From assembly GCF_038624605.1 (NCBI RefSeq), contig NZ_CP152020.1, forward strand, positions 124,001-188,000: 64,000 bases of DNA, given 5' to 3'. Every line of letters begins with the position of its first letter. Position 1 is the first letter of the stretch. The DNA is from Psychrobacillus sp. FSL K6-4046 (GTDB taxonomy: Bacteria; Bacillota; Bacilli; Bacillales_A; Planococcaceae). Under the pieces are notes generated by a model. That model was not told the origin of the DNA. It ran no database searches and worked only from the letters and a program-made list of their open reading frames with translations. The position numbers and the translations under genes were made by a program. Positions 34 to 59,656 of the stretch are shown piece after piece.

Positions 34-1389
34 TCAATTTACTGGTTGAAGTAGACTATTCAATGTCTGTTCGAACTGCCCACTAGGAACACCTAGAATA
101 TTATTTCCCGAGTAACCTTCGGGATCAACTATGGCCGGATCTGCCCCATACTCATACAATAGAGCTGTCAATTCGTAATTCTCATGATAAAAGGTGGCGG
201 TCAAAGCGTTGGAATAGAGATCCTTTGTATTAGGGTCTGCCCCAGCCTCAAGTAAAATTTCTGCCATCATAATGTCATTTAAATATACTGCTTGATGTAA
301 AGCAGTTGCCCCCTCTGTGTCTTTTTCTTCTAAATTTACCCCGCTAGCTATAAGCTCTCGCACCTTCGTATAGTCTCCATCCACGACTGCATTCATTAAT
401 GGAGTGTAATTGTAAGTGTCTTGGTCTGAAGGTGAAGAGCCTGTCTCTAGTGTTGACTCCTCCGAAGTTAAAGTATTTAACGCGGATTCATCCTCTAGCA
501 AGTCATCAGGAAAAATGCTTGCATAGGTAAGAGAGCCTGCCAGGACTATTCCTATAATCCCTAAATAACCAATGAATAAAATACCAAATAATGCGCCTAA
601 ACCAAGAGCGATTTTATTAGCATTCGTATAGTAGGTAGGAGTCCCTTCTACTTGCATAAAATGACCGACTGCTTGGACTCTTTTAGGAGTGGGTGGGTGG
701 GAGGATAAGACCTCACCAAGCCATGTGAAAACATTGGACTCTGTGGAAATTTGCTCTAAATAGGCATCCTCATTTACCTCTTTATATAGTTCCTTCCCAA
801 TACTTAAAATTGTTAGGCCACGCTTAGCAGCTGCACCATCTCTAATGAAGTAAGCTGCTTGACGATCACATGTATATTCACATGCACGACTATACGCCTG
901 GGAAAGGAACGGCACTAAACGAGCGGGTGTAATTAATATATTTTTCCAAATGTGATTTCGTTTAATATGTGTAAGCTCGTGAGCTATGATGAAATCTAGC
1001 TCTGCATCGCCTTGCTCCCTAGCAAGCTCAAATACCTCTGAATAGAGCACAACCATATTCTTTCCTAAAAACCGGGTTGCAAAAGCGTTAAAAGCACCTT
1101 CGGAGTGAACTACAAATATATCTGGTACTTTTTTTAAATTCATATCTTCAGACATACGAGTTATTCGTTCATAGACATCTGGAAACTGCCTTTGGCTAAC
1201 TCTGATACCATTTGATCGAATATAGCTAAGATTCATAAGATGTGCATATGTACTGATAAAAAATAAAACAAGAATGATTGCGATCCCAAAAATACTAGCT
1301 ATAGCTATAACGTAAATTAATAAACTAAATAGGATGCTTAAAATAAAATATGGCATTTCTTTTGTGGATCTTAATTGTTTGTCTGTCAT
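34..1389 (-). CDS. M48 family zinc protease fused to C-terminal ankyrin repeats
   Basis: Probable membrane zinc endopeptidase of the M48 (HtpX/Ste24-like) family with an ankyrin tail. Residues about 14-48 are a long hydrophobic stretch; HELTH at 137-141 is the zinc site and E171 in ACEYTCD the likely third ligand; a second hydrophobic block lies at about 259-292. Residues 326-420 contain three ankyrin-type repeats (TPLMNAV, TALHQAV, NALTATF with GADP turns). HtpX-like proteins normally end before such a region, so the fusion is unusual. The gene stands alone and diverges from the ABC importer genes. The substrate and the ankyrin partner are unknown. Confidence 0.85.
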   Translation of the reverse strand: MTDKQLRSTKEMPYFILSILFSLLIYVIAIASIFGIAIILVLFFISTYAHLMNLSYIRSNGIRVSQRQFPDVYERITRMSEDMNLKKVPDIFVVHSEGAFNAFATRFLGKNMVVLYSEVFELAREQGDAELDFIIAHELTHIKRNHIWKNILITPARLVPFLSQAYSRACEYTCDRQAAYFIRDGAAAKRGLTILSIGKELYKEVNEDAYLEQISTESNVFTWLGEVLSSHPPTPKRVQAVGHFMQVEGTPTYYTNANKIALGLGALFGILFIGYLGIIGIVLAGSLTYASIFPDDLLEDESALNTLTSEESTLETGSSPSDQDTYNYTPLMNAVVDGDYTKVRELIASGVNLEEKDTEGATALHQAVYLNDIMMAEILLEAGADPNTKDLYSNALTATFYHENYELTALLYEYGADPAIVDPEGYSGNNILGVPSGQFEQTLNSLLQPVN

Positions 1390-1426
1390 ATTAACCCCCT
1401 CTTTCTTATTTTAAAATTACCAAAAT

Positions 1427-30905: not shown

Positions 30906-30966
30906 TTGATTTTACTATATTCGTTGTTTATAATGGAAGACGACTCAATAATGATAATCGTTATCA
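30906..30966 (+). promoter_or_regulatory. yclN promoter with Fur box
   Basis: TTGATT (30906-30911), 17-bp spacer, TATAAT (30929-30934). A 7-1-7 Fur box, TGATAAT-C-GTTATCA, lies at 30952-30966, just past the likely start point. Iron-dependent repression of the siderophore importer is expected. Confidence 0.85.
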
Positions 30967-33758: not shown

Positions 33759-33849
33759 TGAGAATGATAATTAATTGCAGAAATCAGTTGACAAATTTTG
33801 AGGGTTTCATTTAAACTATAGTTAGAAGTGAAAATGATAATCATTTTCA
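33759..33849 (+). promoter_or_regulatory. yclQ promoter with strong Fur box
   Basis: TTGACA at 33788-33793 with TAAACT 18 bp on. A near-perfect Fur palindrome spans 33829-33849 (TGAAAATGATA / TCATTTTCA halves). A weaker Fur-like half site, GAATGATAATTAATTGC, lies at 33761-33777. Confidence 0.82.
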
Positions 33850-58730: not shown

Positions 58731-59003
58731 TCTTTCTCACTCCTTTTTTTTGGGGATTGTTATTAGCTATTCCCGAAGCTAAAAGGAATATGCATTTTAG
58801 TTTTACAATAAAGTTATTAGCAAACGAGTAGAAGGGGAGTACAACGAACAAACCTCTATTCAAAGGTGTGTAACTTCGATTTCCTCACTGGCGAACGCTT
58901 TCTATGGGAAAGAAAGAAGCATTCACCCCATTAATCGACTGCCAAAACAATTAGTAAGTAAAACTTAACTTGGGTAAGTAAAAAATTACATTAATAAAAA
59001 TGG

Positions 59004-59036
59004 TTGACATACTAATTGAAAATGATTATCATTATC
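59004..59036 (+). promoter_or_regulatory. Promoter overlapped by Fur box (sRNA candidate)
   Basis: TTGACA (59004-59009), 17-bp spacer, TATCAT (59027-59032). A 19-bp Fur box, GAAAATGATTATCATTATC at 59018-59036, matches the GATAATGATAATCATTATC consensus at 17 of 19 positions and covers the -10. No open reading frame begins downstream; a terminator does follow. Confidence 0.8.
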
Positions 59037-59039
59037 GTA

Positions 59040-59174
59040 TAGAGCTTACTCAATAGAGAAGGTTCTTACCAGCAACTTTTCTCCAAAGTACAGCTGAGTA
59101 TTTATTACGACTTAACCCCCTCAACGTTAAGTTCGTCCCTTGTATAGCGGCATCCGCATGGATGCCGCTTTTTT
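59040..59174 (+). ncRNA. Candidate Fur-controlled small RNA (FsrA/IsrR-like)
   Basis: About 135 nt between a Fur-controlled promoter and a strong terminator. There is no ATG or GTG in it before the terminator stem, so it is probably non-coding. It contains a hairpin ACTTAAC (59110-59116)/GTTAAGT (59126-59132) whose loop is CCCCTCAAC. C-rich unpaired loops that base-pair with Shine-Dalgarno GGAGG are the hallmark of the iron-sparing sRNAs FsrA of B. subtilis and IsrR of S. aureus. Other C-rich bits are TTCTCC and CGTCCC. Homology to FsrA is inference; start point is estimated. Confidence 0.65.
59146..59174 (+). terminator. Terminator of candidate sRNA
   Basis: AGCGGCATCC (59146-59155) pairs with GGATGCCGCT (59160-59169) with loop GCAT; T-run 59169-59174. 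Confidence 0.92.
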
Positions 59175-59431
59175 ATGAGATAAAACAAGGCTACGAGGTA
59201 ACTATCAATAAATAGAGAGCGTCCGCTGTAACGGAGAACAGCCTACAGGTATTGGAATAGGAATATTTGGTGGACGAACCTATATTTTTATATAAGTTTA
59301 AAAAGAAATAATCGTGGAAAATTTAAAATAGAAAAAATTAAATAATTAATAGTATGAAATTATTATGTGTAATTTATCAAGCATTATTAATAATATACAA
59401 AAATAAGGATTTACAAATTTATCACATGTAT
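59175..59431. other. AT-rich intergenic stretch with a repeat fragment
   Basis: CAATAAATAGAGAGCGTCCG at 59205-59224 resembles the outer end of repeat copy B (CAATCAATACAGAGAGTGTCCG near 35111-35132), so a remnant of the same element may lie here. The rest is AT-rich with no recognisable gene. Confidence 0.5.
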
Positions 59432-59587
59432 TTATTCAGACTTCGGCGGCCATTCTAAATGGGAAATATCTTCTCTGTACATCCAATCAATTGGGACATG
59501 CATCAGATGTGCTCGCATGCAAAAAAAGAGCATATAGCATAAGGTAAAATCGTTTAAGAATCTTGCGTTGTACCAATTATTAATCAT
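59432..59587 (-). CDS. Possible small protein (51 aa)
   Basis: Minus-strand frame, ATG at 59587: MINNWYNARFLNDF, then TLCYMLFFCMRAHLMH, a short hydrophobic stretch, then IDWMYREDISHLEWPPKSE. Tryptophan/tyrosine content and the ordered change from hydrophobic to acidic look like a real small protein, but the ribosome binding site (AAGG) is weak and I know no homologue. Confidence 0.4.
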   Translation of the reverse strand: MINNWYNARFLNDFTLCYMLFFCMRAHLMHVPIDWMYREDISHLEWPPKSE

Positions 59588-59656
59588 GTAATAATGCCTT
59601 GTGACATGGAACTTTTTAACTTCCGCACCGTAGAAGTTAGAAAGGGGGCGGTTATT

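Follow-up and report, generated by a model that had tools for sequence, protein, structure and literature searches.

A putative intergenic small RNA with a Fur box on its promoter was found in the window, the 64,000-nt stretch analysed here (bases 124001-188000 of a single-contig Psychrobacillus genome of 3.89 Mb), and it is very probably a Fur-repressed, trans-acting regulator that covers the Shine-Dalgarno (SD) sites of mRNAs that encode dispensable iron enzymes and thereby spares iron. With iron present, Fur on the box at the -10 hexamer would block transcription; when iron is short, transcription would give an RNA of ~137 nt that contains three hairpins followed by a terminator, and its hairpins 2 and 3 would present (U)CUCC and CCCCC(C)UC. 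These loops are predicted to pair with the G-rich SD sites of such mRNAs, the best case being sdhC, and the pairing would block ribosomes, so that iron is spared, for example by shutting down the production of succinate dehydrogenase. A putative Fur box at the promoter, the lack of a substantial open reading frame and a terminator are the marks of the class of Fur-repressed iron-sparing small RNAs, to which the locus would belong on these grounds.

Promoter, Fur box and predicted transcript

Promoter-like sites were scanned over 1 kb, and seven were found against 3.8 expected; the promoter assigned to the RNA (TTGACA, a 17-nt spacer and TATCAT, 59004-59032) was an 11/12 match, and the other six sites had 9 matches each. 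Fur boxes were scored against the 7-1-7 consensus. The first box (59017-59031) has 1 mismatch in 14 positions and overlaps the -10 hexamer, and a second box with 2 mismatches (59023-59037) overlaps the first. Five Fur-box-like sites were counted in the whole window against 1.15 expected, and five were reached in 1 of 100 shuffles. Other such sites of the window lie at 30952-30966 and 33829-33849.

The 143-nt strand folded at -46 kcal/mol, compared with -25.2 kcal/mol (sd 3.3) for its shuffles (z -6.2), and was matched at 59039-59143 by the covariance model R2 described below (E 2.5e-11). The terminator consists of a 10-bp stem (7 GC) and a loop of 4, followed by five T. The initial annotation had reported a -35/-10 pair, a near-consensus Fur box on the -10, a hairpin exposing a C-rich loop and a strong terminator, all of which were confirmed, the loop lying exactly where it had been placed. 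Hairpin 2, with the conserved UUUUCUCC at 59077-59084, was absent from that annotation, and its statement that ~135 nt hold no start codon did not stand, as a TTG occurs at 59140 and ATGs occur in the terminator. The layout as a whole is more than chance, since it recurs in 18 of 19 Psychrobacillus genomes and its stems covary. Features are listed in Table 1.

Table 1. Positions of the predicted RNA, its control elements and a candidate target site in the window
Feature	Position	Strand	Basis
-35 hexamer TTGACA	59004..59009	+	Promoter scan; TTGA or TTGCT upstream in 78/78 unique copies
Overlapping putative Fur boxes covering the -10	59017..59037	+	Box scan
-10 hexamer TATCAT	59027..59032	+	Promoter scan
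Predicted small RNA, ~137 nt, start inferred from the -10	59039..59175	+	Promoter, fold, R2 match
Hairpin 1, variable in relatives	59041..59066	+	Fold
Hairpin 2, conserved motif ACUUUUCUCCA, loop UCUCC at 59080-59084	59070..59096	+	Fold, covariation
Hairpin 3, loop CCCCUCAAC at 59117-59125, C-run at 59116-59120, proposed antisense to SD sites	59107..59136	+	Fold, covariation, pairing
Intrinsic terminator, 10-bp stem then five T	59146..59175	+	Terminator scan, fold
GAGGGGGTTAATATG before M48-peptidase-like gene (37-1389), candidate further target	1387..1401	-	Inference only

Covariation of the stems

RNAalifold on a plain MAFFT alignment of 56 copies returned zero pairs, because linkers of unequal length misalign the stems, and it was replaced by single folds, models seeded on well-aligned copies, pair counts and arm swaps. 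In the model-fitted alignment of 50 copies, 88.7% of the cells were paired (77.7% in shuffles), and 99 double changes were counted against 30, with values as high in 0 of 500 shuffles; the double changes fell in 12 of the 15 pairs. Since a fitted alignment favours its own structure, arms were also swapped between dissimilar copies without alignment (64 own and 384 swapped combinations), giving -7.5 kcal/mol for own and -2.2 kcal/mol for swapped arms of hairpin 3, and -6.2 and -3.5 kcal/mol, respectively, for hairpin 2. The changes in these stems indicate a hairpin structure that is under selection. In single folds the C-run was mostly unpaired in 62 of 64 copies, and the whole of UUUUCUCC passed the same threshold in 24 of 64 only; in folds of the Lysinibacillus type the stem is closed by the first part of the motif, which leaves CUCC as the loop.

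Distribution in relatives

BLASTN with the locus matched each of the 17 other Psychrobacillus genomes sampled first; in G015 the match covered the promoter part only, in front of another gene. In relatives, with loci read by anchor, the order is Fur box, hairpin 1, a hairpin with ACUUUUCUCCA and a hairpin with CCCCC(C)UC. Conservation of the loop and terminator had been proposed as a check, and the loops proved to be kept; a strict scan detected a terminator in 62 of the 78 unique copies.

A named genome collection was scanned with a pattern demanding GATTATCATT, TTTCTCC and CCCCCTC, which gave 61 stretches, of which L034, L035, L066 and L083 were left out as chance hits. The others came from Psychrobacillus, Lysinibacillus, Kurthia, Viridibacillus, Caryophanon, Paenisporosarcina, Rummeliibacillus, Metasolibacillus and two records labelled Bacillus, and the invariance of loops and Fur box in these loci is partly by construction, because the fetching pattern demands both. 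Four Lysinibacillus genomes held two stretches each.

Covariance models R1 (14 sequences) and R2 (50 sequences) were built without the Fur box and start downstream of it. Among 250 genomes of the family, R1 matched 31 in 6 of 19 genera (E<=0.001) and R2 matched 100 in 13 of 19 genera (E<=0.01), including 18 of 19 Psychrobacillus with the window's own genome. R2 also matched 9 of 348 genomes in a class-wide sample, all nine within the window's family (f1), and members outside this family were not found among the 348; negatives of both models are provisional, because the large searches were run with stricter filters. The best-scoring matches supplied 60 loci (44 distinct sequences), in every one of which both loop motifs were present and a Fur box, with 2 mismatches or fewer, stood at the match or at most 60 nt before it.

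When a Fur box plus C-run pattern was applied to 69 model-negative genomes, a short version of the RNA that R2 had missed appeared in 4 of 4 genomes of a fourteenth genus (g2), together with one further match of different look (L321). Divergent variants were seen by eye in G026 and G029, which R2 scored at 17.5 and 21.9 bits. The divergent variants at L364 (160-340) and L021 (1500-1690) carry the C-run first, then UUUUCUCC and then a second C-rich stretch, and both lie directly upstream of a gene labelled by eye as fumC-like, fumC being the gene for the iron-independent fumarase.

These searches point to a genuine RNA family, common to relatives of the strain and not matched by Rfam 15, and the case for its existence and conservation is strong. 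It extends over at least 14 genera (13 by model, one by pattern), with Lysinibacillus, Kurthia, Viridibacillus, Caryophanon and Psychrobacillus among its named members, and, with sequences enough to show covariation, it could be proposed as a new Rfam family.

Predicted pairing with sdhC and other leaders

The sdh genes had been named beforehand as a target, and the sdhC leader AAAUUUGAGGGGGGUUACUGUUUUG is indeed complementary to the hairpin-3 loop UUAACCCCCUCAA; the predicted duplex across the SD reaches -18.4 kcal/mol, equalled by 1 of 54 leaders of the window. GAGGGGG(G) is kept in the sdhC leader of 18/18 Psychrobacillus with the RNA, and in G015, a Psychrobacillus without it, the G-run is interrupted (GAGGGAGG), an interrupted leader that still gives -14.9 kcal/mol with the window loop. 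Pairing of 8-14 bp was predicted in 17 Psychrobacillus. For the C-run/G-run lengths, six of these pairs had 5/5, five had 6/6 and six had 5/6; the combination 6/5 did not occur.

From the 250 genomes, 128 sdhC leaders were collected, with g2 counted as RNA-positive. A G5 run was present in 63/63 RNA-positive and 43/65 RNA-negative genomes, for which the Fisher value of 6e-8 overstates the evidence because the genomes are related and the leaders no random draw; all 22 leaders without the run, that of G015 among them, were RNA-negative. The run is kept in 24 of 29 genomes of g7 and 7 of 8 of g4, genera in which the RNA was found by neither model nor pattern. A G-run strictly tracking the RNA was ruled out by the 43 RNA-negative genomes that keep it, and some of the RNA-negative genomes may hold missed copies, as in G026 and G029. 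The sdhC data thus support pairing, though not cleanly.

The persistence of the sdhC G-run in genera without a detected copy would also suit an RNA that is real and Fur-controlled and acts mainly in another way, for example as a sponge for an RNA or an RNA-binding protein, and the near-invariance of the loop motifs, while the stems drift, is what a protein or RNA ligand would also need. We consider this unlikely, however, as both loops are anti-SD sequences, the predicted sdhC pairing extends over the lengths given above and the sdhC run is interrupted in the genome without the RNA. Anti-SD pairing is the preferred reading. No target emerged for hairpin 2; for the RNA as a whole sdhC is the best candidate target, followed by the weaker candidates, the genes for a Rieske protein (L327) and a 4Fe-4S membrane protein (L187). 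These two are the iron-sulfur genes among six GAGGGGG-led genes annotated by profile; the other four encode a peptidase, a CoA transferase, an ABC transporter and BrxL.

G-runs are not rare: of the 54 window leaders, 7 carry a G5 run, and GAGGGGG-N3-12-ATG was counted 73 times in the whole genome versus 38 for the reversed pattern. The strongest duplex among the 54 window leaders was that of the M48-peptidase-like gene (-20.5 kcal/mol). Elsewhere in the same genome, five different genes (L200, L205, L322, L337 and L344) are preceded by a repeated element, an identical leader with ATTACTAATATACGAGGGGG at its end that provides both an SD and a complement to the loop; between L200 and L205 the identity extends over 150 nt or more. 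The leader of BREX brxL (L196, 1501-1517), GAGGGGGTGAAATCATG, is complementary to the loop as well.

Gene neighbourhood

An FhuF-like gene and the RNA are divergently oriented at 125 of the 143 loci inspected (loci redundant between search routes), the gene lying at most 200 nt from the Fur box in 74 and further off in 51, and this neighbour ties the locus to iron. The FhuF-like protein matched TIGR03951 at 44.6 bits, under the cut-off of 63.85. No such neighbour was seen in the other 18, which include the loci of the window species and P. faecigallinarum. The different gene context noted by the initial annotation fits the window strain, in which a DUF3243 gene lies upstream and a DUF6054 gene downstream.

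Psychrobacillus sp. BL-248-WT-3 (L078; G384), of the same species, shows ~99% identity on either flank of the locus, and similarity to this sister strain ends in the terminator, within which the comparison indicates a recombination edge. Over 59146-59627 of the window, ~450 nt replace ~1.5 kb of the sister strain that includes a malic-enzyme-like gene (label by eye); these ~450 nt after the terminator are like nothing else in the loci compared. The terminator stem shows paired changes on both arms relative to L078/G384.

That the unit serves a downstream gene as its 5' leader or attenuator and is no independent small RNA is very improbable. Its position directly before a fumC-like gene (by eye) in the divergent variants L021 and L364 would agree with such a role, but frames of at least 60 aa do not start within ~415 nt after the window terminator, L078 has its malic-enzyme-like gene downstream instead, and the downstream genes vary among the loci read.

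Coding potential

The longest frame in the window transcript has 12 codons (from the TTG at 59140 through the terminator), and the ATGs inside the terminator open 6 codons. A small Fur-regulated peptide is very improbable, even though an ATG is present in 57 of 64 unique copies with longest frames of up to 30 codons, 33 of these 64 frames run off the stretch read and a closed 11-codon frame (MNFSYFSPEVC) occurs in 15 closely related copies, because the longest frame differs between genera in start codon, position and sequence, an SD-like stretch precedes it in only 2 of 40 listed, and stem length and sequence differ among copies, with compensatory changes. A conserved peptide frame, which the initial annotation had named as a ground for refutation, is unlikely on this evidence, the frames being short and changing between genera.

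Implications and comparison with known iron-sparing RNAs

The hairpins appear to be duplicable and reorderable, since the RNA occurs in tandem pairs in Caryophanon loci and in three copies in G419, and C-run-first variants stand before fumC-like genes. It is conceivable, and put forward tentatively, that these RNAs evolved separately as a Gram-positive iron-sparing lineage, restricted to a single family of Bacilli and based on two anti-SD hairpins, and that they constrain the SDs of their targets. If so, the sdhC G-run would be maintained as long as a genome has the RNA and may be lost after the RNA has disappeared. The one Psychrobacillus without the RNA offers a natural experiment, its sdhC SD being changed.

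Iron-sparing RNAs are known in few lineages (RyhB, PrrF, FsrA and IsrR) and seem to have arisen repeatedly; the question of convergence is testable in culturable strains with the present family. An earlier report of this RNA was not found in the open-licence literature, in searches of which some queries returned mostly unrelated papers. At gathering score the window was without a match in Rfam, and 20 relative loci gave three copies of Bacillaceae-1 RNA only, outside the RNA. These copies (RF01690) lie in Rummeliibacillus and Lysinibacillus loci (L049, 1108-1174 and 2617-2683; L036, 5221-5330).

RyhB and PrrF resemble the window RNA in logic, being Fur-repressed RNAs that lower iron enzymes (PMC9410917), and differ from it in that an Rfam match at gathering score is absent; PrrF was listed at the window with 14.1 bits (E 5.8), its cut-off being 90. 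The FsrA model (RF02273) gave 0 matches in the genome, with B. subtilis positive as control, FsrA was absent among Rfam matches at E<=10 in 58950-59250, and among 299 genomes of the class the model matched four, which all belong to a single other genus. The check with Rfam and FsrA covariance models suggested by the initial annotation thus left the window RNA matched by neither.

FsrA of Bacillus subtilis nevertheless shares with the window RNA a Fur-box promoter, short length, C-rich stretches, a terminator and an sdhC leader complementary to a C-rich stretch, which here is complementarity only. The sdhC leader is a reported FsrA target (PMC11257911, PMC12871923); FsrA is reportedly 84 nt long and has another sequence and layout. 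IsrR of Staphylococcus is described in PMC9410917 and PMC11257911 as a Fur-repressed RNA with stem-loops whose C-rich single strands pair with SD sites and with sdhC among its most reliably predicted targets; sdhC as a predicted IsrR target is also covered by PMC12871923. In these accounts it is like the window RNA in its Fur box, stem-loops, C-rich loops and predicted sdhC target; it is set apart by description, being reported as 174 nt long and, in PMC9410917, as conserved among staphylococci and provided with three C-rich regions. The proposal of an FsrA/IsrR counterpart is unsupported as regards homology with FsrA, as judged by the FsrA model, and stands for analogy, so that the interpretation of the locus as a probable analogue of FsrA and IsrR is largely supported.
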